Part shown: positions 1-37,819 of the stretch, piece after piece
How the letters are laid out: each line of letters begins with the position of its first letter
How positions within the stretch are numbered: the first letter of the stretch is position 1
IMG/VR virus record: IMGVR_UViG_3300011116_001125
Span: 1 to 64,000 of that record
Strand: one strand, 5' to 3'
Length of the DNA: 64,000 bases
From: a virus
Notes under the pieces: model-generated
Told to the model about the DNA's origin: nothing
Database searches by the model: none
The model's input: only the letters and a program-made list of their open reading frames with translations
Program-made: the position numbers and the translations under genes

Positions 1-161
1 TTAGCACAGCGAATACGACTAATACGCTGAATCTCCGCATCCTCGGTTTTGAAGACATTCCTAGCAGCAATGATGCTACTGTGGCAGGTCGCAACGCTAT
101 CGTGATGCTTAACAACCACTTCTACCGCTACTGTGCCAACGGCACGGGCGCGGGTGTGTAA
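1..161 (+). CDS. Head/decoration-like protein, C-terminal part (cut by window start)
   Basis: The frame begins at base 3 and ends with TAA at 159-161. It encodes the same C-terminus as the complete 205-residue gene at 57535-58152 (ending NGTGAGV). Only the last 52 residues are here because the window begins inside the gene. It lies 15 bp upstream of the major capsid gene, as its intact counterpart does, so a head-decoration or capsid-associated role is inferred from position. The first 127 bases are identical to the second copy. Confidence 0.85.
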   Translation, partial: STANTTNTLNLRILGFEDIPSSNDATVAGRNAIVMLNNHFYRYCANGTGAGV

Positions 162-176
162 GGGGAGCATTGAACA

Positions 177-1085: not shown

Positions 1086-1111
1086 TTGCTGCCTTTGAAC
1101 AGCAGTAATGG

Positions 1112-1140
1112 AAGAGCGGGCCTTGTGTCCGCTCTTTTTC
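1112..1140 (+). terminator. Rho-independent terminator after capsid gene
   Basis: An 8-bp perfect stem (AAGAGCGG / CCGCTCTT) with a 9-nt loop is followed by a T-run. The same hairpin is conserved in copy B at 59104. Its place after the capsid gene would separate capsid expression from the downstream genes. Confidence 0.8.
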
Positions 1141-1142
1141 TA

Positions 1143-1171
1143 TTGTAACGTATGTTGTTCCTGACTGCTAA
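1143..1171 (+). promoter_or_regulatory. Candidate promoter between terminator and next gene
   Basis: TTGTAA and TGCTAA are separated by exactly 17 bp, directly after the terminator and 30 bp before the next ATG. The arrangement is kept in copy B although the spacer has changed. The -10 match is weak, so this is an inference. Confidence 0.35.
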
Positions 1172-1200
1172 GCAGACAACCCCAACGACAGGAGACCTAC

Positions 1201-1680
1201 ATGGGGACGACAACCTTTTCCGGACCGATTAAAGCGGGTCCGATTAAATTCACCACAGGTACCACACTTGGTCAAGACGTTGCTGACGTAGGTAACGTTG
1301 TGCTTTCGCAATCGAGCGCACTTACGCAAGCCACCAATGCAGGCTCGGCAGGCGTTTACAGCACTGGAATCGTTATTCCAGCGGGTTGCACCATTACTTC
1401 TATTCAGATTTTTGTAACGACAGCATGGTCTGGCGCAGCACAAACAATCAATGTGGGCACAAACTCCACGGCAACGCAACTTGCCGTTGCGGCAGACAAT
1501 GATCTTTCCACAACGCTCGGAATTAAAAACATTGTTCCTGGAAGCGATGCAACACGCACTGGCAAGTGGATCGATGTTGGTACAACAGATATTCGTATCT
1601 GGACAAAATCAACCAACACGGGTACGGGTGTGGGTGTGATTGTTGTCAACTACATCCAAAACGGCGCTATTAGCCCCTAA
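1201..1680 (+). CDS. Putative virion protein, β-rich, 159 aa (copy A)
   Basis: A Thr/Gly/Ala-rich, hydrophobic-alternating sequence without charged helices, typical of β-sandwich head-fibre or decoration proteins. The start follows ACAGGAG. It is the first gene after the capsid terminator and is followed by two more β-rich structural genes. No family is recognised with certainty. Copy B (59194) is one residue longer and differs mostly around residues 40-60 (TNAGSAG against KNGSNATG), which would suit an exposed loop. Confidence 0.6.
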   Translation: MGTTTFSGPIKAGPIKFTTGTTLGQDVADVGNVVLSQSSALTQATNAGSAGVYSTGIVIPAGCTITSIQIFVTTAWSGAAQTINVGTNSTATQLAVAADNDLSTTLGIKNIVPGSDATRTGKWIDVGTTDIRIWTKSTNTGTGVGVIVVNYIQNGAISP

Positions 1681-1696
1681 TACCTAGGAGGCTGAC

Positions 1697-2095
1697 ATGG
1701 CCGATGCGGTAACCACACAAACTATCTTCCAAGGCGATAAAACCCTTGTTATGAAGTTTACCAACATTTCAGATGGCACCGGAGAGTCCGGTGTCATCAA
1801 GGTAAACGTTGCTTCACTTGCTTCATACCAAGGTATGCCGTGTACTGCTGTCCAAATTGACAAGGTCTATGCCATGACGTATGGTATGGAAGTTAGACTT
1901 TATTGGGCAGCAACTAGCCCACAACTTATTATGACTATTCCACAAAACGTCATGAACACGCATAACTATGACGAGTTTGGGGGTATTGATAATAACGCAG
2001 GGGCGGGTAAAACGGGTAACATCACTTTTACAACGGCAGACGCCAGTGCAGGTGATATGTACACTATTATCCTTGTAATGCGTAAGCTGTATTAA
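1697..2095 (+). CDS. Putative virion protein, 132 aa (copy A)
   Basis: A small β-rich protein beginning MADAVTTQTIFQGDKT, with a strong AGGAGG ribosome site in the 16-bp gap after the previous gene. Position between capsid-proximal genes suggests a head or head-completion role. No known domain is recognised. The counterpart at 59693 is highly similar; differences cluster around residues 35-40 and 75-90. Confidence 0.6.
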   Translation: MADAVTTQTIFQGDKTLVMKFTNISDGTGESGVIKVNVASLASYQGMPCTAVQIDKVYAMTYGMEVRLYWAATSPQLIMTIPQNVMNTHNYDEFGGIDNNAGAGKTGNITFTTADASAGDMYTIILVMRKLY

Positions 2096-2106
2096 AAGAG
2101 ACGATA

Positions 2107-2895
2107 ATGACTCGACCCCCTTCCTCAGTAACTAGGACTGGTGCGTATGAGCCCTTTAACTTGCAGGTGGCACGGGGTCAAATTCCGTGGCACCAAAGTA
2201 TCGTTGTTTTTGGTTACAACTCTGACGTAGACACAAGTGTGGAAACTGTTTGGCCTTACGGCGGTATTCTTCCTTTTCCCAACAATGCTTTGCAGATGTC
2301 TGTTAGCTCAGATAACACTAACGACACAGCAGCAGGGACAGGCGCTAGAACCGTTTATATTCAAGGGCTGAACGCTAATCACGATACGATCAGCGAAACA
2401 GTTTCTTTAAATGGTCAGACTGCCGTACTTACGGCAAACTCTTATCTACACATAAATCAAGCCTATGTTGCAACCGCTGGGTCATTAAACAGCGCCGCAG
2501 GTAATATTTACTTTGGAACAGGCGCTTTAACTTTAGGCGTTCCAGCAACCGTTTATGATATCATTCAATACGACTATAACACCAGAGTTACTGGAAGTTA
2601 TACTATTCCATCTGGCTACACCGGATACTTAGAACAGGGCTTGTTTTCTTCTGGACAGGCTGGCGGTTCTAACGCTGTAACCGGACGTCTTATGACACGC
2701 GGTACGGATAATATTCGTAGGACAGCAGCGATTGTTACGCTAAATAATGGTGCTGCTGACTATGCGTTTGAGTATCCAGTTGTTATACCAGAAAAAACAA
2801 CTATTGAAGCTCAGGCCGTTGGCTCCTCAACAAACAACGCCTGCTCTAGCATGTTTATTATTGTTCTCATTAAAAATGACGCGGGGACTGCGTGA
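2107..2895 (+). CDS. Putative virion structural protein, 262 aa (copy A)
   Basis: A β-rich protein rich in Tyr, Thr, Ser and Gly with few charged residues; the N-terminus reads MTRPPSSVTRTGAYEPFNLQ. It follows the previous gene by 11 bp and its TGA overlaps the next ATG (TGATG), so translation is probably coupled. It is likely a head or tail surface protein by position and composition. The copy at 60103 contains a stretch of roughly 200 bp with almost no nucleotide change, unlike its flanks. Confidence 0.6.
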   Translation: MTRPPSSVTRTGAYEPFNLQVARGQIPWHQSIVVFGYNSDVDTSVETVWPYGGILPFPNNALQMSVSSDNTNDTAAGTGARTVYIQGLNANHDTISETVSLNGQTAVLTANSYLHINQAYVATAGSLNSAAGNIYFGTGALTLGVPATVYDIIQYDYNTRVTGSYTIPSGYTGYLEQGLFSSGQAGGSNAVTGRLMTRGTDNIRRTAAIVTLNNGAADYAFEYPVVIPEKTTIEAQAVGSSTNNACSSMFIIVLIKNDAGTA

Positions 2896-3179
2896 TGGCT
2901 AAGGGCATGGGCATAAAAACTTCGGTAAAATCAGGCAACTTTCGCCCCACAAAGGCAGGGGCGGGAATGACTGAAAAAGGCGTAAAAGCCTTCCGACGTG
3001 CCAATCCTGGATCAAAGTTAAGCACCGCAGTCACAGAAAAAAGTCCAACAGGAAAGCGCGCAGCACGTAAAAAATCGTTCTGTGCGCGTTCTGCTGGACA
3101 AATGAAAATGTTTCCTGAAGCTGCTAAAGACCCCAACAGCCGCCTTCGGCAAGCGCGTAAGCGTTGGAGGTGCAAATGA
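2895..3179 (+). CDS. Small basic Cys-containing protein, DUF6321-like (copy A)
   Basis: 94 residues, very rich in Lys and Arg. The second half (VTEKSPTGKRAARKKSFCAR, then a KDPNSRLRQARKRWRC ending) matches my recollection of the DUF6321 signature found in many phage genomes. The function of that family is not known; basic charge and two Cys suggest nucleic-acid or metal binding. The ATG at 2895 overlaps the upstream TGA by one base, which I prefer to the GTG three bases earlier. It ends in an ATGA overlap with the next gene. Confidence 0.65.
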   Translation: MAKGMGIKTSVKSGNFRPTKAGAGMTEKGVKAFRRANPGSKLSTAVTEKSPTGKRAARKKSFCARSAGQMKMFPEAAKDPNSRLRQARKRWRCK

Positions 3180-3454
3180 TTATAGATCTGCAAATGCTTT
3201 GGAATGGCCTTTTAACTCTTGTGTTGCTCCCGCTTGCTTGGATACTCGTGTATTTAAACACACGCATTACTGAAGCGGAAGAAAAATCGGCAACAACGTT
3301 TGACCGTATTTGGAAATCAATAGCAGAACACCGCGAAGATATTCCAAAAACCTACGTTACTAAAACCGACCTGTTGAATACTCATAACCAAATCATGAGT
3401 CGCTTTGATCGGTTAGAAGAAAAAATCGACCGCATTACGGGGATAGGCAAATGA
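3176..3454 (+). CDS. Small membrane-anchored coiled-coil protein (copy A)
   Basis: 92 residues: an N-terminal transmembrane helix at about residues 8-26 (LLTLVLLPLAWILVYL) and a charged, heptad-like C-terminal half ending DRLEEKIDRITGIGK. The ATG at 3176 sits in an ATGA overlap with the preceding stop and is preceded by TTGGAGG. The layout resembles small lysis accessory or haemolysin-XhlA-type proteins but with the membrane segment at the N-terminus; a function is not assigned. Confidence 0.65.
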   Translation: MIIDLQMLWNGLLTLVLLPLAWILVYLNTRITEAEEKSATTFDRIWKSIAEHREDIPKTYVTKTDLLNTHNQIMSRFDRLEEKIDRITGIGK

Positions 3455-3621
3455 AAGTACGTGCTAAAAATTCATTGCCTGTTCCGCGTGGTTCAAAAAT
3501 ACGCACGCCTTCTTTCGGGCTTAAAAAGGGTGGTGCTTTGGGTAAAACTAAAAAGCCCAAAGTTGGTATCGCGATTATGATCGCTGTTGGTAAGCCTAGA
3601 AAAGGAATGCGCAATGGTTAA
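3451..3621 (+). CDS. Small basic protein, 56 aa (copy A)
   Basis: A short reading frame beginning MKVRAKNSLPVPRGSK and ending GKPRKGMRNG. Its ATG overlaps the stop of the upstream gene (ATGA) and its end overlaps the next start by eight bases. Conserved in copy B (61447) with mostly synonymous changes, which supports it as a real gene. About a quarter of the residues are Lys/Arg. Function unknown. Confidence 0.65.
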   Translation: MKVRAKNSLPVPRGSKIRTPSFGLKKGGALGKTKKPKVGIAIMIAVGKPRKGMRNG

Positions 3622-4048
3622 GAAAATTTCTGAGTATGGCGGCATGGAAAAGTACTCTTCCAAAAAAGCTATGGGTAAACACGAAGGTAAAGAATCTTCA
3701 CGTGCAGAAGCAGGAGAAAAGTCAATGGCTATGAAGAAACGCGGCGGGGGCATGGCTACCCGTGGTATGGGTGCTGCTCTTAAAAAGGGGGGCAAGGTCA
3801 TGAAAAAAGCTATGGGGGGTGGTGTTAATACCCGTAATCCACCTGCACTTGGTAAACTTCCTATAAGACCCGTTCCTCGGGAACTTTATACTGGTGGTTC
3901 TAAAAATTTTGATGAATCCACAGGTACTTATCGTGGTCGTCCCGGTGGTGGCATGAATTACATTGGTGGTTCTAAAAAATTTGATGAAAGTGTAGGCCCT
4001 CGCAGAATGAAAAAAGGCGGCATGGCTAAAGGTCGTAAGGGCTGCTAA
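3614..4048 (+). CDS. Lys/Gly/Met-rich protein with GGS-FDES repeats (copy A)
   Basis: 144 residues, strongly basic, with several GGGM/KKGG runs, two copies of a short unit of the form GGS-x-x-FDES (residues about 93 and 117) and the C-terminus KKGGMAKGRKGC. The start at 3614 overlaps the preceding gene. The same unit occurs in the product of the gene at 4387. In copy B (61610, 148 aa) the segment order differs and only one such unit remains. Probably a virion-associated DNA-binding or internal protein; that is an inference from charge and position. Confidence 0.6.
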   Translation: MVKKISEYGGMEKYSSKKAMGKHEGKESSRAEAGEKSMAMKKRGGGMATRGMGAALKKGGKVMKKAMGGGVNTRNPPALGKLPIRPVPRELYTGGSKNFDESTGTYRGRPGGGMNYIGGSKKFDESVGPRRMKKGGMAKGRKGC

Positions 4049-4050
4049 CG

Positions 4051-4209
4051 ATGAAAAAAGAGGTTTGGGCCAAGCCACGTCCTAAAGGGTTGGGTAAGCC
4101 CAAGCCTCTTACTTCTAAGCAGAAAAGTTCTGCTAAAAAAGCGGCTAAGGCTGCGGGTCGGCCTTATCCTAATCTTGTAGACAATATGCGTGCTGCGAGG
4201 AAAAAATGA
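4051..4209 (+). CDS. Small basic protein, 52 aa (copy A)
   Basis: Reads MKKEVWAKPRPKGLGKPKPL, then a Lys/Ala-rich stretch ending NMRAARKK. Two bases after the upstream stop, and its TGA overlaps the next ATG (ATGA). Almost unchanged in copy B at 62056, two residues differing. No known family; strongly cationic. Confidence 0.65.
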   Translation: MKKEVWAKPRPKGLGKPKPLTSKQKSSAKKAAKAAGRPYPNLVDNMRAARKK

Positions 4210-4385
4210 AAAAGCCTACTAAAGCGCAAGCTAAAATTCGTACGGTGCTGCATGAGTTTAAGGTAGGTAAACTTCACTCGGGCAGCAAAAAAGGTCCAAC
4301 AGTTAAAAGTCGCCAACAGGCGATCGCTATTGCTCTTTCGCAAGCAGGTAAGTCGATGAGCAAAGCAAAGCGCAGGAGTAAGTAA
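4206..4385 (+). CDS. DUF6496-like small protein (copy A)
   Basis: 59 residues. The core HEFKVGKLHSGSKKGP followed by a QQAIAIALSQAGKS segment matches the DUF6496 signature known from many phage and some bacterial genomes (function unknown). The start overlaps the upstream stop (ATGA). The counterpart at 62211 has 55 residues; the C-terminal tail is where they differ. Confidence 0.7.
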   Translation: MKKPTKAQAKIRTVLHEFKVGKLHSGSKKGPTVKSRQQAIAIALSQAGKSMSKAKRRSK

Positions 4386-4386
4386 G

Positions 4387-5001
4387 ATGCCAAATACAAT
4401 GATGGGTTATGGTGGAGTTCAACCCCAACGCGCAGCCACTCCCGCTATGCCTATTCGGCAAGATTATGCAGGCCCCCTGCCTCAAGGTGGTGGCGGTCTT
4501 GGTAGAGGTGTTCCTCTTCCGCCAAAATTAGGTGGAGGCATGAATTACATCGGTGGCTCTCCCAATTTTGATGAAAGCCTTGGCGCATATCGTAACCCAC
4601 TAAAACCAATGCCTGATGGCGGGTTTATGATTCCCGGTCCGAATGATTTTAGCATGGGTCCAGGAGGTGCGATGACTAGGTATACTCCACCCGCACCCCC
4701 CACGCTTGGAATTACCCCTATCCGTGGTCCTTATGATGTACCTCCAACGTTTGGGGTTACTCCTACTCAAACGCCTGACCAAATGCAGGCTTTGCGTAAT
4801 GCTCATCTTGCGCAACAACAAGCGCAGTTGTTGATGGCGCAGCAACAAGCGCAACTATCTGCTCCTTTGGCCTATCGTCAAGCTGTGGCGCAACAACAGT
4901 ACATCCCGCCTAATGCAGGCATCGCTGCCTTGCCTATGAACCCTGCAATGATGCAACGTTTAGGTACTATCGCAAGCCTTGCAGGCGGAGTACGCAGATG
5001 A
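4387..5001 (+). CDS. Pro/Gln-rich variable virion-region protein (copy A, 204 aa)
   Basis: Low-complexity protein: a Gly/Pro-rich N-terminus carrying a GGGMNYIGGSPNFDESLGAY unit, a Pro/Thr-rich middle, and a Gln/Ala-rich stretch (about residues 138-170). Only the first dozen residues (MMGYGGVQPQ) and the last 20 (RLGTIASLAGGVRR) are shared with its counterpart at 62380, which has 288 residues and a different repetitive centre. It ends in an ATGA overlap with the next gene. Function unknown. Confidence 0.6.
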   Translation: MPNTMMGYGGVQPQRAATPAMPIRQDYAGPLPQGGGGLGRGVPLPPKLGGGMNYIGGSPNFDESLGAYRNPLKPMPDGGFMIPGPNDFSMGPGGAMTRYTPPAPPTLGITPIRGPYDVPPTFGVTPTQTPDQMQALRNAHLAQQQAQLLMAQQQAQLSAPLAYRQAVAQQQYIPPNAGIAALPMNPAMMQRLGTIASLAGGVRR

Positions 5002-5354
5002 AAAAACCTGTAAAGCGCCGCAAGTATGCTGACGGTGGGGATGTGCAAAATCCTGCCGCACCCCCTATCGGCACAACAGATCTTTCTGGTGCAGGGGCAC
5101 AAGCGCAAAACCAAGCGCAGCCGCCTTCTAGTCCGGGTCCGGGACAAACCTCTCCGTATTATTCGCCTTCAGACTATGGTACACCTGTCGGCGCGATGAA
5201 TACGCAGGGCAGTAGTTTGTACGTTCAAGACCGTATGTCAGGCCAAGGTGCAACGGCGCAGGGCTACGCAAAAGGCGGCATGGTCAACAAACGTGGTAAA
5301 GTTCGTGGTTGCGGGGTGGCTAAACGTGGGCTCACAAAAGGCAAGGTGTACTGA
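4998..5354 (+). CDS. Small protein with basic Gly/Cys C-terminal tail (copy A)
   Basis: 118 residues: a basic start (MKKPVKRRKYADGGDV), a Pro/Gln/Ser-rich middle, and the tail GGMVNKRGKVRGCGVAKRGL plus TKGKVY. The next gene product ends with nearly the same tail, so they share a short C-terminal module. Translation is coupled to the upstream gene by ATGA. Conserved at 63243. Likely a virion-associated protein; family unknown. Confidence 0.6.
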   Translation: MKKPVKRRKYADGGDVQNPAAPPIGTTDLSGAGAQAQNQAQPPSSPGPGQTSPYYSPSDYGTPVGAMNTQGSSLYVQDRMSGQGATAQGYAKGGMVNKRGKVRGCGVAKRGLTKGKVY

Positions 5355-5356
5355 TC

Positions 5357-5632
5357 ATGATAAAGCGTAAGAAAAAGTATGACCTACCTGTGCCACAATA
5401 CGATACTCCTTCCGGAGAAGAACAATATAAGAAAATACTAGAAGAAAATGCAAAGGCTTTGGATAAAACCAAAAGCACAGGTGATGTTACTTCTGAAGAG
5501 GAAGAAACGTTGCGTGAGACCATGCGTAAACAGGTTGAGGAAAGCAAGTACAAGCGCGGCGGCATGGTAAAGAGCAAAGCGCGTGGTTGCGGCGTAGCTG
5601 TTCGTGGCTTGACCAAAGGCAGGATGTATTGA
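5357..5632 (+). CDS. Small acidic/basic protein with the same Cys tail (copy A)
   Basis: 91 residues. Residues 1-65 are a charged helix-forming region (ETLRETMRKQVEESKYKRGG); the tail KARGCGVAVRGLTKGRMY repeats the module of the upstream protein. It begins two bases after the upstream stop. Conserved at 63602 (92 aa). Function unknown. Confidence 0.6.
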   Translation: MIKRKKKYDLPVPQYDTPSGEEQYKKILEENAKALDKTKSTGDVTSEEEETLRETMRKQVEESKYKRGGMVKSKARGCGVAVRGLTKGRMY

Positions 5633-5633
5633 T

Positions 5634-5906
5634 ATGGCAAAAGGTTCTGCTTCACCTACAGGGTTAATGAATATTGGTATGTGGGAAGATTCTCCTGCTG
5701 ATATTCGTGGGGATACCGCTATCAAAAAGCGTATGGGCAAGCAGGGCGTGTCAAAAGAAGCCTATGAAAGTTCTGCTGAAGACATCAAGCATGACATTCA
5801 AAAGTCTTCAAAAGGTATCGGTATGAAACGCGGTGGCGCGGTATACATGCCTTCTGAAAGCAAGGGTAAAAGCCGTAAACATACGCGGGGTTGCAAAATC
5901 TGCTGA
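5634..5906 (+). CDS. Small basic protein, 90 aa (copy A)
   Basis: Begins MAKGSASPTGLMNIGMWEDS and ends with a Lys/Arg-rich tail HTRGCKIC, a variant of the Cys-containing tails of neighbouring proteins. The stop overlaps the ATG of the following adaptor gene (TGATG). The same gene is cut by the right end of the window at 63882. Confidence 0.6.
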   Translation: MAKGSASPTGLMNIGMWEDSPADIRGDTAIKKRMGKQGVSKEAYESSAEDIKHDIQKSSKGIGMKRGGAVYMPSESKGKSRKHTRGCKIC

Positions 5907-8318: not shown

Positions 8319-9287
8319 ATGGCTGATGCTATTGTCGCATTTCAAGGTTGGAATAGGTCACAAGGTTGGGGGCTCGGGCCTTTTGGCACGGGCTCCATTG
8401 ATATTGGCGTCGCAACAGGGGCTGTAGGAACTGTTAGCGTTCAGGGTGACGCTGTAGCTTCGGTAACAGGTGTATTTTCTACAGGCCAAGTTGGTACCGT
8501 AGACGTTTACTTAAACACATCTATTGACCTCACAGGTGTAGTGGCTACAGGTCAAGTTGGCGATATTACAGTTGTTGGTAACGCTATTGCGGATACCACA
8601 GGCGTTGCCGCTACAGGTCAAGTTGGCAGTGTTTCGATTGTTGTCGATGTAAATGTCGACGTTACGGGCATAGCTGCTATTGGTCAGGTTGGCACTGTAG
8701 ATATTTATCTATCGCCTAATGTTGCCGTAACAGGGGTAGAAGCTACAGGCCAAGTTGGCAATGTTACTGTTGCTCTTTCCGCTAATGTTTCTGTAACTGG
8801 ATTAGAAGCTACAGGCCAAGTTGGCGATGTTACTGTTAGTGGCAACGCAGTAGTTGATGTTGCGGGGTTATCTGCAACAGGTGAAGTTGGAACTGTAGAA
8901 GTTCAACTTTCGCCTAATGTAAGCGTTACTGGTGTATCTGCTACGGGTGAAATTGGCACCGTTTCGGTTGTGCTTGTTACAAATGTTTTTGTAACGGGTG
9001 TAGAAGCAACGGCTACGGTAGGCAGTGTTACTGTTTCACTTTCGCCTAACGCCTACGTTATAGGGGTAGAAGCCACTGGTTATGTAGGAACTGTCACCGT
9101 TTGGGGGCAAATTGTGCCGAGCCAAAACCCCGATTGGAATACCTTTGTTCCAGTAGATGTGCCCGCTTGGGCGGCTATGACCCCTGCAAATACACCAAAT
9201 TGGATACCGATTGCGCCTTCGGATGATCCAAGCTATACTCCGATCAACCCATCCCAAACGCCAAACTGGGAGCAGATAGCTGCGTAA
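8319..9287 (+). CDS. Repeat fibre protein with 22-residue TGQVGTV units
   Basis: 322 residues. Residues about 30-265 are some ten tandem copies of a 22-residue unit (form TGQVGTVxVxLSPNVxVTGVEA), in exact register. Residues about 270-320 are a second repeat of about 11 residues with the form P-N/D-W-x-x-I/F-x-P. Such regular short β-repeats fold as elongated fibres, so a tail or head fibre shaft is likely. The gene lies directly before the long tail-fibre gene. A single 16-residue unit of the same repeat recurs at the C-terminus of the protein encoded at 13556. Confidence 0.7.
   Translation: MADAIVAFQGWNRSQGWGLGPFGTGSIDIGVATGAVGTVSVQGDAVASVTGVFSTGQVGTVDVYLNTSIDLTGVVATGQVGDITVVGNAIADTTGVAATGQVGSVSIVVDVNVDVTGIAAIGQVGTVDIYLSPNVAVTGVEATGQVGNVTVALSANVSVTGLEATGQVGDVTVSGNAVVDVAGLSATGEVGTVEVQLSPNVSVTGVSATGEIGTVSVVLVTNVFVTGVEATATVGSVTVSLSPNAYVIGVEATGYVGTVTVWGQIVPSQNPDWNTFVPVDVPAWAAMTPANTPNWIPIAPSDDPSYTPINPSQTPNWEQIAA
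8400..9110 (+). repeat. In-frame tandem 66-bp repeats
   Basis: About ten degenerate copies of a 66-bp unit encode the 22-residue repeats. The most constant DNA part is ACAGGYCAAGTTGGC. The copies vary mainly by synonymous changes and at surface-type residues, so the array is old and kept at protein level. Confidence 0.75.
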
Positions 9288-24670: not shown

Positions 24671-25219
24671 ATGTTAGATTTTGAACAAACGGCTGACGAA
24701 CTTAGCAAGCTAGGCGATGATGCTATAGGCCGCATTGCTAAACTGGTTAAGATGCAACTTGCCTTGGAAGCAAGGCTAGCTCAACTAGAAGAAGAGCAAA
24801 AAGATGTTGCACGTCAGTTACGTGAAATAGCTGAAGAAGAGCTGCCTTCCGCAATGGAAGAGCATGGCGTAAGCCAATTAAAAATGGGTGACGGTAGTGA
24901 AATCACTGTAAGCACGTTTTACAGTGCCTCAATACCAAAGGATGAAACTGAGCGTGCGTTCGATTGGTTGCGCGATAATAGGTTTGGTGACCTCATTAAA
25001 AATGTTGTTTCCACAACCTTTGGGCGCAACGACGATGCTAAGGCTAAAGCACTTGTCAATACGCTGTCTGACAGTGGTTATAGCGTAAATCAGAAGCAGT
25101 GGGTTGAACCAATGACCCTCAAGGCTTTTGTTAAGGAACAAGTTGAAAAGGGGGCACCGCTTCCTATGGATTTGTTTGGTGTATATATTGGTAAAAAAGC
25201 CAAAGTAAGGAGAAAGTAA
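24671..25219 (+). CDS. Coiled-coil early protein, 182 aa
   Basis: Residues about 20-62 form a Glu/Arg/Leu-rich coiled coil (LALEARLAQLEEEQKDVARQ), followed by an α/β region with KMGDGSEITVSTFYSASIPK. Domain order resembles Gp157-type phage proteins but I cannot claim that family. The AGGAGG ribosome site is strong, and the stop overlaps the start of the SSB-like gene, so a role with replication proteins is likely. Confidence 0.55.
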   Translation: MLDFEQTADELSKLGDDAIGRIAKLVKMQLALEARLAQLEEEQKDVARQLREIAEEELPSAMEEHGVSQLKMGDGSEITVSTFYSASIPKDETERAFDWLRDNRFGDLIKNVVSTTFGRNDDAKAKALVNTLSDSGYSVNQKQWVEPMTLKAFVKEQVEKGAPLPMDLFGVYIGKKAKVRRK

Positions 25220-26031
25220 TGGCTAAAACATCAGTTGCGGTTGCGGAAACCAAAAACACTGCACTTGCTACGGCAAGCGATCTATCAGGCTTTGAAGAGT
25301 TTGCAGGCTTGGGTATGCAAGAAGTTACTGCCGCAGATATGGCAGTGCCGTTTTTGCGTATTCTGGCACAACTTAGCCCACAGGTGAATAAGCGTGATGG
25401 TGCTTATGTGCAGGGCGCAGAACCCGGAATGATCTACAATACTGTGGCTAACGAAGTTTACAGTGGTGAAGAAGGTATTTTGGTAGTTCCTTGTTACACT
25501 AATACTCGTTTTGTTGAATGGAAGCCCCGTGAAAAGGGCGGCGGTTATGTGGCGAGCTATATGGGTACCGACCCTATTGTAAACACAACTCGCAAGGATG
25601 ACCGTGGGCAGGATATCTTGCCTAATGGCAACTTGCTCAGCAAAACGGCGCAGTGGTTCGTATTGTTGTTGCACCCTGAAAACGGTGCGCAACGTTGCCT
25701 CATTACCATGAGCAGTACACAGCTTAAGAAAAGCCGTAGTTGGGTGACCACTACACGTAGCATCATGGGCAAAGGTGCAAACGGCCCGTTTGTAATGCCT
25801 ATCATGTCACAGGTTTACCGCCTTAAAACTACTGAAGAGCGCAACGATAAAGGTAGTTGGTTTGGGTGGGATATCGCACGTGAACGCCAGTTGGTGTTGG
25901 AAAATCGTGACGATAGTGACCTCTACCGTATGGGTGTTGAGTTTAGCAAAAGCATTTCAGCGGGTGAAGTCAAGGTTAAAGATGAACACCCTGATATGTC
26001 CTCCGAAGATAATGGTTCTTCACCGTTTTAA
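25219..26031 (+). CDS. Single-stranded DNA-binding-like protein
   Basis: 270 residues. A short disordered N-terminus, a β-rich core with aromatic residues (TRFVEWKPREKGGGYVASYM; SWFGWDIARERQLV) and an acidic C-terminal tail DMSSEDNGSSPF ending in Phe, as phage SSB proteins have. No sequence motif proves the OB fold. Position directly before primase and helicase genes supports a replication role; it could alternatively be a recombination mediator. Confidence 0.5.
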   Translation: MAKTSVAVAETKNTALATASDLSGFEEFAGLGMQEVTAADMAVPFLRILAQLSPQVNKRDGAYVQGAEPGMIYNTVANEVYSGEEGILVVPCYTNTRFVEWKPREKGGGYVASYMGTDPIVNTTRKDDRGQDILPNGNLLSKTAQWFVLLLHPENGAQRCLITMSSTQLKKSRSWVTTTRSIMGKGANGPFVMPIMSQVYRLKTTEERNDKGSWFGWDIARERQLVLENRDDSDLYRMGVEFSKSISAGEVKVKDEHPDMSSEDNGSSPF

Positions 26032-31165: not shown

Positions 31166-32020
31166 ATGAACGGCGAAGGGCAGTTCTTTTATTGGATAAA
31201 TGAGCGCCATTCTATCTATTTGTCTAAGGCGGCGGGTAATCCAAAACCTTGGACAAGTGATAGTATTTTCCAACAGTACAAGTTTACGAACCCTTTTAGG
31301 GAGCTAGACAAAACAACTGTATGGATGCGCGAACATTTGACCAATCCCAACAAAAATGCCCCCATAGCCGAAACCCTGTTCAACTGTTGCGTGTTCCGCA
31401 TGTTTGGCACGATGGAAATGGGCGAGGCTTTGGGTTGGATAAAGCAGTGGGATCCTGAATATGTGAAAAGTCTTGCCCGTGGTCGGTTGAGCATGGGGCT
31501 TAAAGTATTCACAGGGGCATACATTATCACTAACCAAGGGTTGAAAAACCCAAAGGAAGAGGTAGTATGCGATATGTTTCTGACCCCCGTATGGAAAGCC
31601 CGTGATCAGTTAGCCGAGTGCATTGAGCAAACAAATAGTTTGGAAGCACTGCACAAGGAACTTGGCAAGTTTGCAGGATGGGGCGGCGGGGGCTTTATGG
31701 CCTACGAAGTAGTAACCGATCTTAACCATACTAGCGCCATGCCAGAGCCAGTTGATAGGTTTACGTGGGCCAATGCAGGTCCAGGAGCAAAGCGGGGTCT
31801 TAACCGTTTGCATGGTCGCCCCTTGGATAAAGCCAATGGCGTAGACTGGAATAGCGAAATGCAACAGCTATTGGAGCTCGCCCCAAAATACTGTGACCCC
31901 GAAGTATTAGCTCAAGTTGTAGATATGCGCACGATAGAGCATAGCCTGTGCGAATGGGATAAGTACCAACGGGTACTACTCGGCCAAGGTAAACCACGAA
32001 GCCTGTACAAAGGAATTTAG
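31166..32020 (+). CDS. HMUDK_hel / aGPT-PPlase-like DNA base modification protein
   Basis: 284 residues. The start GEGQFFYWINERHSIYLSKA, GNPKPWTSDSIFQQYKFTNP, FRELDKTTVWMREHL is the pattern of the helical domain shared by 5-hydroxymethyldeoxyuridine DNA kinases and the α-glutamyl/putrescinyl-thymine pyrophosphorylase group (PF18723). These act on hydroxymethyl-uracil in phage DNA, activating it for further substitution. No separate P-loop domain is fused here, so this protein would be the helical/pyrophosphorylase type only. It begins a tight run of five genes with a radical SAM enzyme, a glycosyltransferase-like protein and a thymidylate synthase homologue, which strongly supports a role in DNA hypermodification. 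Function itself is inferred. Confidence 0.7.
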   Translation: MNGEGQFFYWINERHSIYLSKAAGNPKPWTSDSIFQQYKFTNPFRELDKTTVWMREHLTNPNKNAPIAETLFNCCVFRMFGTMEMGEALGWIKQWDPEYVKSLARGRLSMGLKVFTGAYIITNQGLKNPKEEVVCDMFLTPVWKARDQLAECIEQTNSLEALHKELGKFAGWGGGGFMAYEVVTDLNHTSAMPEPVDRFTWANAGPGAKRGLNRLHGRPLDKANGVDWNSEMQQLLELAPKYCDPEVLAQVVDMRTIEHSLCEWDKYQRVLLGQGKPRSLYKGI

Positions 32021-32021
32021 T

Positions 32022-33020
32022 ATGTCATACGTACAAGACCCACCCTACTGCATCCAAGTAGAATTAACTGAAGGATGCAACTTGGGTTGTAGCTTCTGCG
32101 GGTTGCAACACATTCGTGATAACGGTGCCAATGGCCCCGAAGATAAACACGGTAAAGCCTCCTTTATGAAGTTTTTAACCGTGGAAAATGCGGAGGTTAT
32201 TGCAAGCCGTATAGCCGAAGCTAAATGGACCCCCCGTATTGAGTTTGCCATGCACGGCGAGCCAACCATGAACCCTAATTACATTGAAATTGTAGGGGTG
32301 TTCCGTAAGAATTTACCGAAAGCCAGTTTGCAGTTGACCAGTAATGGCGGCGGGCTACTCAAAGGCCAAGGGTTCAGTAGCAATATCAACGCGCTTATGG
32401 AAGCGGGCCTGAACATACTTAGTTTAGATAACTACGATGGCATACGTATCGTTGATAAAATTTTGCAAGGATACAATGGGCCACATCGCGTATGGAAATA
32501 CCCGCAAGAAATTATGGGCAACCCTCATCGCCGCCGCAAGCCGCATGAACACGATATTGTAGTTATTCAAGATATTGAAGCCGCTACCAAAGGCAATCAC
32601 AGTATACTCAGCAACCACACAGGCGGGAGCTTTCCGCTTAATGATAAAATGGCAGGGAAGCGTTGTGCAAAGCCCTTCCGTGAACTTAGCGTGCGTTGGG
32701 ATGGCAACGTAGCGATGTGCTGTAACGACTGGCCCGGACGCTACAAAATCGGCAACTTGTTAGAAACAGCAATAAGTGAGCTTTGGCTAGGTGAAGCCTT
32801 CCAAGCCGCTAGACAAGCCTTGTATCATGGACAACGGACATTCACACCTTGTAAAGGTTGTGACCATGTAAGTTACCGTCCAGGATTGTTGCCTGATGCC
32901 AAGGGTAAAGAAACATTACCAAAGCCTGATGCGCAAACGTGGGCAGTAATAGAAAAATACACAAGTGGTGAGCCTTACACTCCAAAAGTAAAAAGGCCGT
33001 GGGATGGAGTAATTAAGTGA
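32022..33020 (+). CDS. Radical SAM enzyme with SPASM-type C-terminus
   Basis: 332 residues. The radical SAM iron-sulphur motif is Cys19-x3-Cys23-x2-Cys26 (EGCNLGCSFCGLQH), followed by an HGEPTMNP motif (the GGE-type SAM-binding loop). The C-terminus has further Cys (215, 233, 234, 277, 280; KRCAKPF, AMCCNDW, CKGCD) as in SPASM/twitch domains with auxiliary clusters. It starts two bases after the preceding gene and overlaps the next by four. Radical SAM enzymes are known in predicted phage thymine hypermodification systems; the substrate here (a modified base in DNA or its nucleotide) is inference. Queuosine-type QueE is unlikely, given the SPASM region and lack of other queuosine genes. Confidence 0.85.
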   Translation: MSYVQDPPYCIQVELTEGCNLGCSFCGLQHIRDNGANGPEDKHGKASFMKFLTVENAEVIASRIAEAKWTPRIEFAMHGEPTMNPNYIEIVGVFRKNLPKASLQLTSNGGGLLKGQGFSSNINALMEAGLNILSLDNYDGIRIVDKILQGYNGPHRVWKYPQEIMGNPHRRRKPHEHDIVVIQDIEAATKGNHSILSNHTGGSFPLNDKMAGKRCAKPFRELSVRWDGNVAMCCNDWPGRYKIGNLLETAISELWLGEAFQAARQALYHGQRTFTPCKGCDHVSYRPGLLPDAKGKETLPKPDAQTWAVIEKYTSGEPYTPKVKRPWDGVIK

Positions 33021-33979
33021 ACGTCGATCTATTTTATCTTAGCCCTAACCCGTATGGTGGATGGGTTACCTTCACCGCGCATTTGGTTGAGGCTTTGAAA
33101 ACGGTTGGTATCAAACCAAACTTGTATCGTATTAGGCCGCGCAGTGAAAAGAAACCACGGCCCTTTGGTTACGATCTGCATTACACAAACATCAGTTTGC
33201 AAGATGCTTTGCGTAGCCCGAACAAGAAGTTGATTGTAGCCGCCGCTAAAAACTTTGCGGAGGAAACTTCGGCGCTGTACTCAGCGGGTGCCGCGCTTGT
33301 AGTGCATGATCCTACCGAAATCAAAAACCTACCACCGTTAGATGGCAAGATCATTGTTATTCGGCAGATTGGTTTAACGTATCTGCCAAAAGCCGTGTTC
33401 ATACGGCACCCGTATCAACGTAGGCCCGAGTATGAAATATTCAACCGTACAACACGGGCTATCAGCACTTCGCGTATTGACTTTGACAAGCATACCGCGC
33501 TGATACTTGATGCAAATAGGTTAGTGCCCGATGAAGTTAAGTGCAGGATATATGGTTTTGAAAACCGCATCTACACACGATTTAAGATAGTACCTCATTA
33601 CCCTGAATGGGAACAAAGCAAAGCGGCTTATCCCCGCAGTAAAGAAGCCGCGTTTAAGTTGCTTTCTTACGCGCAACTTGCCGTGGATATGAGCCTTATT
33701 AAAGGTGATGGCGGTGGTACTCAATACACAACACTGGAAGCATGGGATGCAGGTGCAGTTCCGGTTATCCAACGTGCGTGGCTAATGCCCAAAGATGATA
33801 TGGTTGAAAACCAAAACTGTTTTGCAGTAGGTAACGCCGATGAGTTAGCCGCATTGTTATCAGACGTAGGGAATACTTCATACTTGGATAACTACCGCGA
33901 GTATGGATATAAGCAGTTGGCGCTCCACCATCCCAAGGTTATTGGTGAACGCTATAAAGCCGTTTTAGAAGCTATTTGA
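33017..33979 (+). CDS. GT-B type glycosyltransferase-like protein
   Basis: 320 residues with a two-lobed GT-B layout: NPYGGWVTFTAHLVEAL at the start (glycine loop of GT4 enzymes), and in the C-terminal lobe GGGTQYTTLEAWDAGAVPVI and ENQNCFAVGNADELAALLSD, the nucleotide-sugar-binding side. It overlaps the radical SAM gene and is followed by the thymidylate synthase-family gene after 17 bp. Could glycosylate a hydroxymethylated or otherwise activated base in phage DNA. Start codon GTG at 33017. Confidence 0.7.
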   Translation: MNVDLFYLSPNPYGGWVTFTAHLVEALKTVGIKPNLYRIRPRSEKKPRPFGYDLHYTNISLQDALRSPNKKLIVAAAKNFAEETSALYSAGAALVVHDPTEIKNLPPLDGKIIVIRQIGLTYLPKAVFIRHPYQRRPEYEIFNRTTRAISTSRIDFDKHTALILDANRLVPDEVKCRIYGFENRIYTRFKIVPHYPEWEQSKAAYPRSKEAAFKLLSYAQLAVDMSLIKGDGGGTQYTTLEAWDAGAVPVIQRAWLMPKDDMVENQNCFAVGNADELAALLSDVGNTSYLDNYREYGYKQLALHHPKVIGERYKAVLEAI

Positions 33980-33996
33980 TAATAGTAGGGCATACC

Positions 33997-34986
33997 ATGT
34001 ACACAATAAAGGTTAGAAACGTTTCTGAGGCCCTCTACGTTGGTCTAGGTGCTATCAAAAGTACGGGGGCTAAAATACAAAGCCGCGCAGGTGAAACCCT
34101 TGAAATGCCTGCTCCTGTATGCACAACGTACAGTCACCCTATGGAGCGTGTGTTGTTCTACCCGCAACGTGACGCTAACCCGTTTTTCCACTGCTTAGAA
34201 GCACTGTGGATGTTGGCAGGGCGCAACGATGTGGAGTTCCTTAAGCGTTACAACAAACGCATGGAAACATATAGCGATGGCAATGATATATTGCACGGAG
34301 CTTATGGGCACAGATGGCGTAATTGGTTTGGCATTGACCAGTTGGATATCGCTGTAAAACGGTTGAAAAAATACCCCAACGATAGACGCACCGTCGTGCA
34401 AATGTGGGATAGTGAAAATGATTTGTATGAAGGTAACCAGTTAAAAGATATCCCTTGTAACACGCAAATATACTTTAAGGTGCGTGAAGGGCGTTTGAAC
34501 ATGATGGTTACATGCCGTAGTAATGATATGATATGGGGCGCGTATGGCGCAAACGCAGTTCACTTTTCAATGTTACAAGAATACGTTGCCGCTAGAGTAG
34601 GTGTGCCCGTAGGGACGTATCACCAAGTGAGCGATAGCTTCCATGCTTATACGGACGTGCTTACTAAGTTGGATAACTTGGTTGCCGATTATGACCCCTA
34701 CTATGAGTTCGATTACTTGGTGCAACCTTTGGTAACGGATGCTGCCAAGTTTGATGAAGAACTTCGTAGGTTTTTTGATTCATCGCCACTTACACGTGTC
34801 TACCGCAATATGTTTCTTGGCAATGTAGCCGACCGTATGCGTGCGGCCCATGCACTATGGCGCAGTGGCGATATGGACGAAGCCCTGAGTATGGCGGGTG
34901 CTATCACTGCGCCGGATTGGCGTAAGGCTTGTGTAGAATGGTTGGAACGCAGGAGAAAGAGCGATGAGCAAGACATTAGAAAATAA
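33997..34986 (+). CDS. Thymidylate synthase-family protein, hydroxymethylase candidate
   Basis: 329 residues. Family motifs: HGAYGHRWRNW, DRRTVVQMWD, IPCNTQIYF with the catalytic Cys154, CRSNDMIWGAYGANAVHFSM and YHQVSDSFHAY. Three features depart from classical ThyA: Asn instead of His after the catalytic Cys, a one-residue longer nucleotide loop (GAYGAN), and a different C-terminus without the conserved ThyA end. This subgroup occurs in phages with modified bases as dUMP or dCMP hydroxymethylase. The loop Asn favours dUMP, hence 5-hydroxymethyl-dUMP as product. Start at 33997. Its cluster position supports hydroxymethylase; plain thymidylate synthesis remains possible. Confidence 0.75.
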   Translation: MYTIKVRNVSEALYVGLGAIKSTGAKIQSRAGETLEMPAPVCTTYSHPMERVLFYPQRDANPFFHCLEALWMLAGRNDVEFLKRYNKRMETYSDGNDILHGAYGHRWRNWFGIDQLDIAVKRLKKYPNDRRTVVQMWDSENDLYEGNQLKDIPCNTQIYFKVREGRLNMMVTCRSNDMIWGAYGANAVHFSMLQEYVAARVGVPVGTYHQVSDSFHAYTDVLTKLDNLVADYDPYYEFDYLVQPLVTDAAKFDEELRRFFDSSPLTRVYRNMFLGNVADRMRAAHALWRSGDMDEALSMAGAITAPDWRKACVEWLERRRKSDEQDIRK

Positions 34987-35278
34987 TTTGGCTGAGTTAG
35001 CAAAAGCCGATGTAGAAGGTTTAATGCGTGCGCAAATCAGCTATGGCAATAGTTGGAAGCGTAGAGGTGGCGTTGGTGCGTTTATGATGTTAGCCCGTAA
35101 GTGGGACCGCATAAGCAATCAATGCAAGAAGGTTGGTTGGGATGTATTCAAAGCCATAGAAAATGACCCAAGTGATACAGGTATTTTAGATGACATACGT
35201 GACCTACGCAGATACCTTTTGTTAGTACACGAGGAAATGCAACGTAATGGATATAAAGATCCCGGATCACTTGATTGA
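34964..35278 (+). CDS. Nmad1/DUF1599-like nucleotide-modification-associated protein
   Basis: 104 residues, all helical. ISYGNSWKRRGGVGAFMMLA, RKWDRISNQ and DDIRDLRRYLLL follow the pattern of nucleotide modification associated domain 1 (DUF1599), which is repeatedly found beside thymidylate-synthase homologues and hypermodification genes in phages. Enzymatic activity is not established; a MazG-like nucleotide-handling role has been suggested for the fold class. Overlaps the preceding gene by 23 bases. Confidence 0.65.
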   Translation: MSKTLENNLAELAKADVEGLMRAQISYGNSWKRRGGVGAFMMLARKWDRISNQCKKVGWDVFKAIENDPSDTGILDDIRDLRRYLLLVHEEMQRNGYKDPGSLD

Positions 35279-35462
35279 GGCCGTGTGTGAGTGTGGCAAA
35301 GAAAAGCGCACGCTCACCATGCGTAAACTAAAGAACAAATGGCCCTTTTGTCAGTGCCGTCAAGCAATGAAAGTTTATGATGAGCAACCTATGGATGAAC
35401 AAGGAGTGGGTGATGCCAGAGGCATTGCCGAGCTTCTCCGACGCGGCAGAAATATCCATTGA
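35247..35462 (+). CDS. Small zinc-finger-like protein overlapping PolA start
   Basis: 71 residues with CECGKEKRTL and FCQCRQ, a CxC...CxC pair that could bind zinc. It overlaps the upstream gene by 32 and the PolA gene by 50 bases, which is unusual, but a GAGGA ribosome site precedes the ATG at 35247. Function unknown. Confidence 0.45.
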   Translation: MDIKIPDHLIEAVCECGKEKRTLTMRKLKNKWPFCQCRQAMKVYDEQPMDEQGVGDARGIAELLRRGRNIH

Positions 35463-37314
35463 CCTTGAAACATACGACCCCCGCCTAACTACACATGGCA
35501 GTGGATGGGCACGTAAGGAAGGTGAAATTATTGGCGTTGCCGTAGCTGTTGATGGCGAGGCTATGTATGTTCCTGTGCGCCATAAAAACGGGCAGAATAT
35601 TGATTGGCGACGTGTGCATTATTGGTTGAAAACAATATGCGGAAACCCTAACCGTGATTATGTATTTCACAACGCCATGTACGACGTTGGTTGGTTATGG
35701 TCCGAGGGTATTGAAATCAAAGGCCGCATTGTTGATACAATGGTTGCCGCGCCGTTAATCGATGAGAACCGTTATAGTTACTCGCTCAATGCGCTTAGTA
35801 AAGACTACTTAGGCGAAACTAAAAATGAATACCTGCTAAAAGAAGCCGCCGCTCAATTTGGCGTGAACCCAAAAGCAGGGATGCACTATCTACCCGCACA
35901 GTTCGTTGGGCCTTATGCTGAGCAAGACGCTGCCCTTACACTGAAACTATGGCAACACTTCAAAAACATTATCATTCGCGATGAGTTGCAGGATATTTTT
36001 GACCTTGAGTTGCGCGTTCTACGTGTGTGTATTGAAATGCGTAAGAAAGGTGTGCGCGTAGATGTTGAGCGTGCCGAGCAAATAAAGCGCGATTTAGAAA
36101 AGCGTGAGCAAGCTATATTAGGTGGTTTGAAAAAGGAATATGGCGTAGCGGTCGATATCTGGGCGGCGGCGAGTATTGCCAAAGCGTTTGATGCCGTAGG
36201 CTTGGAATATGAGCGCACGGAAAAAACCAATGCGCCGAGCTTTACCAAAAACTTTCTTGCTAACCATCAACACGCACTGCCCCGAGCAGTTGTGCAAGCG
36301 CGTGAGCTCAACAAAGCACGCACTACGTTTATTGATACGATATTAGGCCATCAGCATAATGGGCGTATCCATGCTGAAATGCACCAGTTGCGCAGTGATG
36401 ATGGCGGTACGGTTACAGGGCGATTCAGCTACAGCAACCCGAACTTGCAACAAATTCCCGCACGTAACCAAGAAATCGGGCCACTGATACGTGGCTTGTT
36501 TTTACCCGAAGAAGGTGAGTTGTGGGGCGCGTTTGACTACAGTAGCCAAGAACCACGCATCGTTGTTCATTATGCTTCGTTGCTTGATTTCACAGGTGCC
36601 GCAGACTTTGTTGAACAGTACGCAAAAGATGCACGCACGGACTTCCACCAACTTGCGGCGGATATTGTTGGTGTGCCCCGCAAGAAAGCCAAAGACATCA
36701 ATTTGGGTTTGTTCTATGGCATGGGGCAGAAAAAGCTAGCCGACCAGTTAGGCTTGGAGCTTGAAGATGCCAAGGAACTGTTTACCTTGTATCACAACAA
36801 AGTGCCTTTCGTGCGGCAGTTAAGTGATTACGCAATGAACCGTGCGAATAGCAGAGGGATTATTCGTACTTTATTAGGTAGGCGTTGCCGCTTTGATATG
36901 TGGGAACCTATGAAGTACGGTTTGCACAAGCCCTTGCGTCACGCAGAAGCGTACGCGGAACATGGCCCACAGATTAAACGTGCGTTCACTTACAAAGCAC
37001 TTAATCGATTAATCCAAGGCAGTGCTGCAGACCAAACGAAGTTGGCTATGGTAACAGCGTACGAAGCTGGATACTTGCCACTGATACAAGTGCATGATGA
37101 GTTGGATTTTAGTGTGGCAAGTGAACTTGATGCAAAGCGCATCGCCGAAATAATGGAAAGCTGTGTGGGCCTTGCTGTACCGAGCGTAGTGGATGCGGAG
37201 TTCGGTCTAACATGGGGCGAAGCAAAGCAAACATTTACCGATAAACCTTGGACCCGTGGTTTGAAGCATAACCACTCAACAATGGAAACAAACAATGATC
37301 ACACAGCTGAATAG
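35413..37314 (+). CDS. polA: DNA polymerase, family A
   Basis: 633 residues. 3'-5' exonuclease domain at the N-terminus (IDLET, Asp17/Glu19; later AEQDAALTLKL), then the polymerase domain: GRFSYSNPNLQQIPARNQ, motif A DYSSQEPR (Asp375), motif B KDINLGLFYGMG (Lys427), motif C VHDELDF (His561, Asp562). No 5'-3' exonuclease domain. The residue matching E. coli Pol I Phe762 is Leu431. The ATG at 35413 behind AAGGAGTGGGTG is preferred over two upstream in-frame ATGs inside the previous gene. Replicative polymerase of this phage. Confidence 0.95.
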   Translation: MPEALPSFSDAAEISIDLETYDPRLTTHGSGWARKEGEIIGVAVAVDGEAMYVPVRHKNGQNIDWRRVHYWLKTICGNPNRDYVFHNAMYDVGWLWSEGIEIKGRIVDTMVAAPLIDENRYSYSLNALSKDYLGETKNEYLLKEAAAQFGVNPKAGMHYLPAQFVGPYAEQDAALTLKLWQHFKNIIIRDELQDIFDLELRVLRVCIEMRKKGVRVDVERAEQIKRDLEKREQAILGGLKKEYGVAVDIWAAASIAKAFDAVGLEYERTEKTNAPSFTKNFLANHQHALPRAVVQARELNKARTTFIDTILGHQHNGRIHAEMHQLRSDDGGTVTGRFSYSNPNLQQIPARNQEIGPLIRGLFLPEEGELWGAFDYSSQEPRIVVHYASLLDFTGAADFVEQYAKDARTDFHQLAADIVGVPRKKAKDINLGLFYGMGQKKLADQLGLELEDAKELFTLYHNKVPFVRQLSDYAMNRANSRGIIRTLLGRRCRFDMWEPMKYGLHKPLRHAEAYAEHGPQIKRAFTYKALNRLIQGSAADQTKLAMVTAYEAGYLPLIQVHDELDFSVASELDAKRIAEIMESCVGLAVPSVVDAEFGLTWGEAKQTFTDKPWTRGLKHNHSTMETNNDHTAE

Positions 37315-37819
37315 AATTTGGCATTTACGCAGGGCAGGATACATTAAGCGTTATCATACAGTGCCTACAGTTGGGGATAGTCAAACCGTGAGTGCGCATT
37401 CTTGGGGCGTTGCAACACTAATCAATGAAATATGGCCCGATGCCAGTAAGCAAGTATTACTCGCTAGTTTGTATCACGATGTTGCCGAAGTGTTGATAGG
37501 TGATACCCCTGCAACAGTGAAGTGGAAGTACGCCGATTTTGCCGCCGCAATCGAAAAAGTAGAAAAAGAAGCGGAAGAAGAATTAGAACTGGAATTTGCG
37601 CTATCCCTGAGAGAGAAGCGCCAGTTGAAAATTGCCGATTTGTTAGAGCTGATGCTTTACGCAGGCGAACAAATAAAGATAGGAAACATGCACTTTAAAG
37701 AAGTACTGAATAACGGAAAAGAATACTTGCAAGTGAAATATGGAAATACCCCTGAGTTTAACGAAGCCTTCCCCATGTTCAACTATGCGCTAACAAGGCT
37801 TAGTCATTCTACCATGTAG
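37295..37819 (+). CDS. YfbR-like HD-domain 5'-nucleotidase
   Basis: 174 residues. HD-domain residues His35 (VSAHSWGV), His61-Asp62 (LYHDVAEVLIGD), Glu65 and Asp70 followed by TPATVKW match the deoxynucleotide 5'-nucleotidase YfbR group. Such enzymes dephosphorylate dNMPs; in a phage this could steer nucleotide pools, possibly away from an unmodified base. It overlaps the PolA end by 20 bases. Confidence 0.85.
   Translation: MITQLNRIWHLRRAGYIKRYHTVPTVGDSQTVSAHSWGVATLINEIWPDASKQVLLASLYHDVAEVLIGDTPATVKWKYADFAAAIEKVEKEAEEELELEFALSLREKRQLKIADLLELMLYAGEQIKIGNMHFKEVLNNGKEYLQVKYGNTPEFNEAFPMFNYALTRLSHSTM

Follow-up and report, generated by a model that had tools for sequence, protein, structure and literature searches.

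Hypermodification of thymine in phage DNA has so far been known mainly as kinase and amino-acid chemistry. In phages M6, SN1, Ab19, Sonora and Pam3, the genes for an HMUDK_hel protein and a thymidylate synthase (TS)-family protein sit with those for a P-loop kinase and an amino-acid:DNA transferase, near the polymerase gene, and these cassettes sometimes add pyridoxal phosphate (PLP), radical S-adenosylmethionine (SAM) and Nmad5 genes. Here we analyzed a five-gene cassette (positions 31166-35278) in a 64,000-nucleotide stretch of viral DNA, hereafter the window, which comprises positions 1-64000 of the 75,636-base IMG/VR record IMGVR_UViG_3300011116_001125. As in M6, the Yuavirus and Abidjanvirus phages (Mesyanzhinovviridae) and Pseudanabaena phage Pam3, relatives of HMUDK_hel and TS are found in the window beside a family A polymerase and an HD deoxynucleotidase, and 5-hydroxymethyldeoxyuridine (5-hmdU) is predicted to be modified post-replicatively, as it is in the M6-type system. 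On the other hand, the window lacks the PF18748 kinase, the PF18724 transferase, the PLP enzyme, the M6-type radical SAM enzyme and Nmad5, and in their place carries a glycosyltransferase (GT) and a SPASM-type radical SAM enzyme. The cassette probably makes a glycosylated, radical-tailored 5-hmdU, a thymine derivative, and installs it in the phage's own DNA.

The predicted product, 5-hmdU bearing a sugar on its hydroxymethyl group, is of the same class as base J of kinetoplastids (glucosylated 5-hmdU), but J arises via JBP oxidation of thymine in DNA, whereas the nucleotide pool is the expected source of 5-hmdU in the window. To our knowledge, glucosylated 5-hmdU had not been reported in phages as of 2019. 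The glycosylation of 5-hydroxymethylcytosine (5-hmC) in T-even phages (T4 dCMP hydroxymethylase with alpha- and beta-GT; T6 TAGT) likewise joins a TS-family hydroxymethylase to a post-replicative DNA GT; however, the window TS appears to be of the uracil type and not the cytosine type, and the window has HMUDK_hel and a radical SAM enzyme. T6 TAGT is regarded as the likely enzyme for adding the second glucose on 5-hmC (PMC13390438). According to the accessible part of a 2022 report, TS, aG/PT-PPlase1 and a putative beta-glucosyl-HMC-alpha-glucosyltransferase lie near PolA in uncultivated HTVC023P-type pelagiphages (PMC9599517), which share with the window the same neighbourhood of HMUDK_hel, TS, GT, deoxynucleotidase and polymerase genes. 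Their GT is of another type, though, and that part of the report describes no radical SAM enzyme and does not state that GT and kinase exclude each other. In the literature consulted, which did not include the main pathway paper of Lee et al. (2022), we found no report of GT/kinase exclusivity or of a SPASM radical enzyme in this context.

The five genes of the cassette (Table 1) are co-directional and are separated by 1-17 bp or overlap by 4-23 bp, confirming the order, spacing and coordinates given in an initial annotation of the sequence. That annotation had proposed an island for DNA base hypermodification with an unusual set of enzymes, a view supported by profile searches, structure prediction and the comparison of 149 non-redundant loci. 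Since genes 1 to 4 recur jointly in the same replication module in the comparative loci, their clustering is far above chance. The TS-family and HMUDK_hel proteins place the cassette by sequence within 5-hmdU-derived thymidine hypermodification, of which it appears to be a recurrent, under-described branch.

Table 1. Position, strand and supporting evidence of the cassette genes and of two neighbouring genes of the same module
Feature	Coordinates	Strand	Evidence
Gene 1: HMUDK_hel (aGPT-Pplase1), proposed 5-hmdU-DNA recognition partner	31166..32020	+	PF18723 1.7e-49; phrog_2396 4e-56
Gene 2: radical SAM enzyme with C-terminal SPASM/twitch-type domain, proposed sugar-tailoring	32022..33020	+	Radical_SAM 1.4e-8; full-length SPASM 2.3e-12
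Gene 3: GT-B glycosyltransferase, proposed 5-hmdU DNA glycosyltransferase	33017..33979	+	AlphaFold2 + Foldseek; motif GDGGGTQY..LEA
Gene 4: TS-family protein, proposed dUMP hydroxymethylase	33997..34986	+	PF00303 4.9e-24; phrog_5131 1e-111
Gene 5: conserved 104-amino-acid orphan just downstream of TS	34964..35278	+	local hidden Markov model, motif; no known family
Family A DNA polymerase, same module	35377..37314	+	Pfam DNA_pol_A 5e-57; 36-39% to M6/Ab19 polymerases
HD/YfbR-like 5'-deoxynucleotidase, same module	37295..37819	+	Pfam YfbR-like 5e-16; homologous to M6 gp59, Ab19 gp15

Gene 3 had been described as GT-B-like, a description that the predicted structure bore out and profile searches did not, as no match was obtained in Pfam, PHROG or NCBIfam. 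No relative was found among 50,697 cultured phage records. The AlphaFold2 model, made from a 12-sequence alignment (predicted local distance difference test, pLDDT, 86), gave GT-B matches in Foldseek with E values down to 3e-10 (listed as 1e-10 to 1e-7), which included SenB, PimA and the alpha- and beta-glucosyltransferases of T4. Among the matches to the T4 alpha-glucosyltransferase were complexes with hydroxymethyluracil-containing DNA. The predicted structure is thus that of the fold expected of a DNA-base glycosyltransferase, and the motif given in Table 1 was invariant in the family. From the position of the gene and its exchange with TAGT (phrog_842) genes in related cassettes, we infer that the product transfers a sugar to a hydroxymethyl pyrimidine in DNA.

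The start of the record (1-5752) is repeated from 57992 on, at about 91% identity and then about 81% further along. It appears that a single complete genome of about 58 kb is followed in this record by the beginning of a related genome or strain; the terminal repeat is probably due to concatenation during assembly and not to a true duplication. Genes for terminase, portal protein, primase, a UvrD-like helicase and a family A polymerase were found. The cassette therefore sits in an essentially complete phage genome, and the absence of a gene from it is meaningful. Searches for absent genes covered the whole 75.6-kb record, over which the initial statement that kinase and amino-acid transferase are missing held. 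No 5-hmdU DNA kinase (PF18748 or gp54-like P-loop) was matched at E<=10, and hidden Markov models (HMMs) built locally from kinase loci found none; the sole plus-strand Walker A motif in open reading frames (ORFs) of at least 80 amino acids was that of the helicase at 27608. The rest of the genome was also checked for a P-loop kinase that might be hidden or have diverged, and none was found. Local HMMs from the M6 gp51 and Ab19 gp09 families detected no amino-acid:DNA transferase (PF18724).

Names of the kinase-branch proteins vary among records. PF18748 is the kinase family, and M6 gp54 scored above its Pfam cut-off while the Ab19 kinase did not. The amino-acid:DNA transferase is labelled aGPT-Pplase2 in some records, and PF18724 was confirmed for the M6 and Ab19 proteins. 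The 5-hmdU DNA kinases M6 gp54 and Ab19 gp12 are annotated 'terminase small subunit', the name carried by phrog_800, and through this label the pathway is hidden in phage records.

For a comparative survey, the GT, the radical enzyme and alignments of HMUDK_hel (three) were used to scan IMG/VR, with 80 of at least 600 matches kept, which yielded loci L003-L038, L042-L121 and L122-L280. Families were assigned by HMMs iterated from seeds and were then re-searched in all six frames. Partner genes within 7 kb were counted in a non-redundant set of 149 HMUDK_hel loci (<80% mutual identity). HMUDK_hel-centred cassettes recurred, with a GT only in 101 loci, a kinase only in 36, both in one (L205) and neither in 11; most of these 11 also showed no TS gene, and three extend less than 3 kb on one side. 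The amino-acid:DNA transferase was present in 18 of the 149 loci, 17 times with a kinase and never with a GT, and the M6-type radical SAM enzyme in 10, always with a kinase. Fisher's test of GT against kinase gave 1e-23, a figure inflated by relatedness among the loci. On a tree of 116 HMUDK_hel proteins the GT/kinase state changed at least 16 times, and in six independent pairs on supported branches GT stood opposite to kinase in 5.6 on average (median p 0.03). These results suggest that the GT takes the place of the kinase/amino-acid-transferase branch in a modular system. The gene combination, which had not been recognised initially, does lack kinase and transferase but is not unique, as it represents one state of this system across the surveyed loci.

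The GT genes were drawn from non-homologous families, and the GT family near HMUDK_hel and TS changed about 21 times on the HMUDK_hel tree. One family is TAGT (PF20691; phrog_842, beta-glucosyl-HMC-alpha-glucosyltransferase), a second kind comprises the GT-B type of the window with its GT45 relatives (weak Glycos_transf_1 or Glyco_transf_4 matches), and a third is GT-B-like with a weak Glyco_trans_1_2 match. The locus with the nearest HMUDK_hel relative of the window (L044, 71%) shows the same gene order, with a TAGT above the Pfam cut-off replacing both the radical SAM and the GT-B genes. Sugar-type accessory genes in some cassettes also argue for glycosylation: L004 and L005, whose GT is 87% identical to that of the window, have an FkbM methyltransferase upstream, and the L007-L012 cassettes add a cytidylyltransferase-cupin protein. 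In L007, L010 and L012 this protein, cytidylyltransferase-like and with a mannose-6-phosphate-isomerase-type cupin, lies between HMUDK_hel and the GT, and the nucleotide sugar is possibly made by the phage there. Two further observations concern sulfotransferases. Locus L108 (8698-9288, 10969-11652) has a kinase where related cassettes have the GT, plus a sulfotransferase-domain protein, and the protein at L020:7304-8011 has a P-loop that by eye is sulfotransferase-like.

In gene picks made before the six-frame re-search, the GT always shared the strand of HMUDK_hel (94 of 94 loci), and its position was between HMUDK_hel and TS in 56 of 88. This arrangement bears on a rival reading in which the target of the GT and the radical SAM enzyme is a small molecule or a glycan of the host surface, in superinfection exclusion or host takeover, and their location in the replication module is incidental. 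Many GT4-like enzymes do target lipopolysaccharide or small sugars, and enzymes of this sort are among the best structural matches; nevertheless, with strand and placement so regular, the GT repeatedly replacing the kinase branch, and one of the swapped-in families being a known DNA-base GT family, we regard this explanation as improbable.

The start of the TS-family gene is better placed at the ATG at 33997. Its product was 47-49% identical to M6 gp58, and its best solved relative was the CMP 5-hydroxymethylase MilA (8e-23), ahead of all thymidylate synthases. Cys154 and Asn186 align with Cys146 and Asn177 of the E. coli enzyme, and Asn155 with His147. Uracil and cytosine substrates are told apart by Asn versus Asp at the E. 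coli TS 177 position (PMC8670742). The Asp of the T-even type cytosine enzymes was found neither in the window protein nor in its aligned relatives, 12 of 12 of which carry Asn, including the enzyme of the 5-hmdU phage M6; in MilA the residue opposite Asn186 is Asp. We propose that the TS-family protein is a dUMP hydroxymethylase. Of the modified thymine or cytosine considered initially, thymine is favoured over cytosine because of this Asn and because the HMUDK_hel and TS genes are related to 5-hmdU genes of M6. There is little likelihood that the cassette makes glycosylated 5-hmC as T-even phages do. Such a product would suit the matches to TAGT and the T4 GTs, best known for 5-hmC glucosylation, and the occurrence of the SPASM radical enzyme next to Tet_JBP proteins, which are capable of acting on 5-methylcytosine, but it is at odds with an Asn shared by all the aligned relatives against the Asp of MilA, and with HMUDK_hel belonging to the 5-hmdU pathway.

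The product of gene 1, initially called HMUDK_hel-like and placed in this Pfam family by profile search, was 36% identical to M6 gp55, whose counterpart in the near-identical phage SN1 is named aGPT-Pplase1. Its AlphaFold2 model was all-helical and confident (pLDDT 93) and had no significant fold match in the PDB, so its role is read from its context. Weak structure matches (E above 1) to helix-hairpin-helix DNA glycosylases and to a queuosine-salvage enzyme are a lead only. Homology to the amino-acid:DNA transferase (M6 gp51) was considered and rejected (hhalign probability 1%). Because HMUDK_hel is kept in both the kinase and the GT branches, we propose that its part is to recognise 5-hmdU in DNA or to present it to the next enzyme, as a recognition partner common to the two routes. 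Alternatively, HMUDK_hel might itself be a transferase or activating enzyme, the GT acting on a group that it has already installed. The invariant polar residues R14, D48, D185, C262, E263, D265 and K266 could be catalytic or DNA-binding, and the family has carried a pyrophosphorylase annotation. We consider this unlikely, since a protein common to two chemically different branches fits recognition better than one specific chemistry.

Gene 2 had been annotated as a radical SAM enzyme with auxiliary cysteines, and both the Radical_SAM and SPASM profiles agreed. All the expected cysteines were present, namely those of the radical SAM cluster (C19-x3-C23-x2-C26; CxxxCxxC) and the C-terminal auxiliary ones (C215, C233/C234, C277 and C280), and an alignment of 24 family members showed little or no variation at any of these positions. 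These features place the protein among the radical SAM-SPASM enzymes. The nearest solved protein by sequence was BtrN (3.5e-9), the 2-deoxy-scyllo-inosamine dehydrogenase, a radical SAM alcohol dehydrogenase with whose auxiliary cysteines those in the C-terminal half of the window enzyme align. The substrate of BtrN, however, is a small aminocyclitol, and the alignment covers mainly residues 192-286.

The SPASM radical enzyme was found in 35 of the 149 HMUDK_hel loci, in every case with a GT and in none with a kinase. It co-occurs with three GT families, and in L033 a TAGT is fused to a radical SAM-SPASM domain; many GT cassettes do not have it. The same radical family adjoins a Tet_JBP-type oxygenase in L022, L023, L029, L034 and L283 (Actinomadura rayongensis), with scores of 1.3e-19 (Pfam, L022) and 5e-94 (HMM, L283), and in L029 and L034 TAGT-like proteins stand beside these two enzymes. 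L283 is a bacterial contig, for which a prophage origin is possible. A hydroxymethylated pyrimidine in DNA, mostly together with a GT, appears to be what the HMUDK_hel and Tet_JBP contexts have in common, and for this reason the radical enzyme is placed after glycosylation. The reverse order, in which the radical enzyme acts on the base, oxidising or radicalising the 5-hydroxymethyl group, with 5-formyl as one possible product, or building a C-C bond on it before the GT acts, would be consistent with the alcohol oxidation typical of BtrN-type enzymes and the alignment of the auxiliary-cluster cysteines, and M6-type cassettes also hold a radical SAM enzyme in the pathway, though a different one. 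It seems to us a minor possibility, given that within the HMUDK_hel loci the enzyme is confined to those bearing a GT, occurs with several GT families and is once fused to a GT, and that GT cassettes without it are numerous, as expected of a late, optional step.

In the pathway that we infer, including the nature of the sugar, the part played by HMUDK_hel and the order of the last two reactions, the TS-family enzyme would turn dUMP into 5-hydroxymethyl-dUMP, which would be phosphorylated to the triphosphate and built into DNA by the phage polymerase. The GT-B enzyme would then move a sugar from a nucleotide sugar onto the 5-hydroxymethyl group in DNA, with HMUDK_hel recognising 5-hmdU-DNA in the same role that it would have beside the kinase in M6-type phages. 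Lastly, the radical SAM-SPASM enzyme would alter the sugar now in place, an alcohol oxidation like that of BtrN or an epimerisation being most likely, and the modified product would shield the phage DNA from host nucleases. Our confidence is moderate to good for glycosylation and lower for the exact radical step. A further-reaching version is offered tentatively, as having somewhat less than an even chance of being right: that the radical SAM enzyme rebuilds a sugar already on 5-hmdU in polymeric DNA, so that abundant uncultivated phages would contain a tailored glyco-thymine not seen before, and that HMUDK_hel is a general reader of 5-hmdU-DNA paired with a kinase or with one of several unrelated GTs.

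Several points weigh against this pathway. The loci were collected by HMUDK_hel similarity, so the counts are not a census. On the HMUDK_hel tree the link between radical enzyme and GT amounted to 3.6 pairs with a GT and none opposed, which is below significance, and the radical step would be optional because L004 and L005 keep HMUDK_hel, GT and TS without the radical enzyme. The window GT has no profile-level relative of known substrate, and its GT-B structure matches also include small-molecule enzymes. HMUDK_hel could be catalytic instead of a recognition factor, and the purified M6 5-hmdU kinase works on DNA in vitro (PMC6449724), so that HMUDK_hel may not be strictly needed by its partner.

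Gene 5 belongs to a family of 133 homologous ORFs in the collected loci (local HMM), which are 100-150 amino acids long, lie directly 3' of TS in most cassettes (L003-L121) and share the motif YGxSWxxRGGxGAFMMLARKWDR...DDIxDLRRYLLLVE, the first part of which is also given as SYGxSWxxRGGxGAFMMLARKWDR. The family had no match in Pfam, PHROG or NCBIfam, and the original assignment of gene 5 as DUF1599/Nmad1-like was rejected, no match to PF07659 being found in 10 family members, nor in the whole record at E<=10. A homologue of gene 5 is also present in the kinase-type locus L108. Downstream, the HD/YfbR-like deoxynucleotidase possibly has a role in pool control. Within the replication module, 24671-25219 and 25219-26031 encode conserved homologues of cyanophage Pam3 gp33 and gp34 (DUF7307, Pam3_Gp34). 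The ORF at 8319-9287 contains internal direct repeats with spacings of about 66 and 198 bp and 67-71% identity. A search for tRNA genes found none.

From these data, the thymine hypermodification pathway seems to have a second branch, based on sugars, which outnumbers the kinase branch among the environmental loci sampled and is nearly missing from cultured phages. They offer a testable role for HMUDK_hel, for which the kinase link implied by the Pfam name fails in most sampled loci. A sugar branch leads to specific predictions that are cheap to test, namely the mass of a glyco-thymine, dependence of the GT on 5-hmdU DNA and dependence of the radical enzyme on the product of glycosylation, and the cassette may provide new DNA-labelling enzymes.

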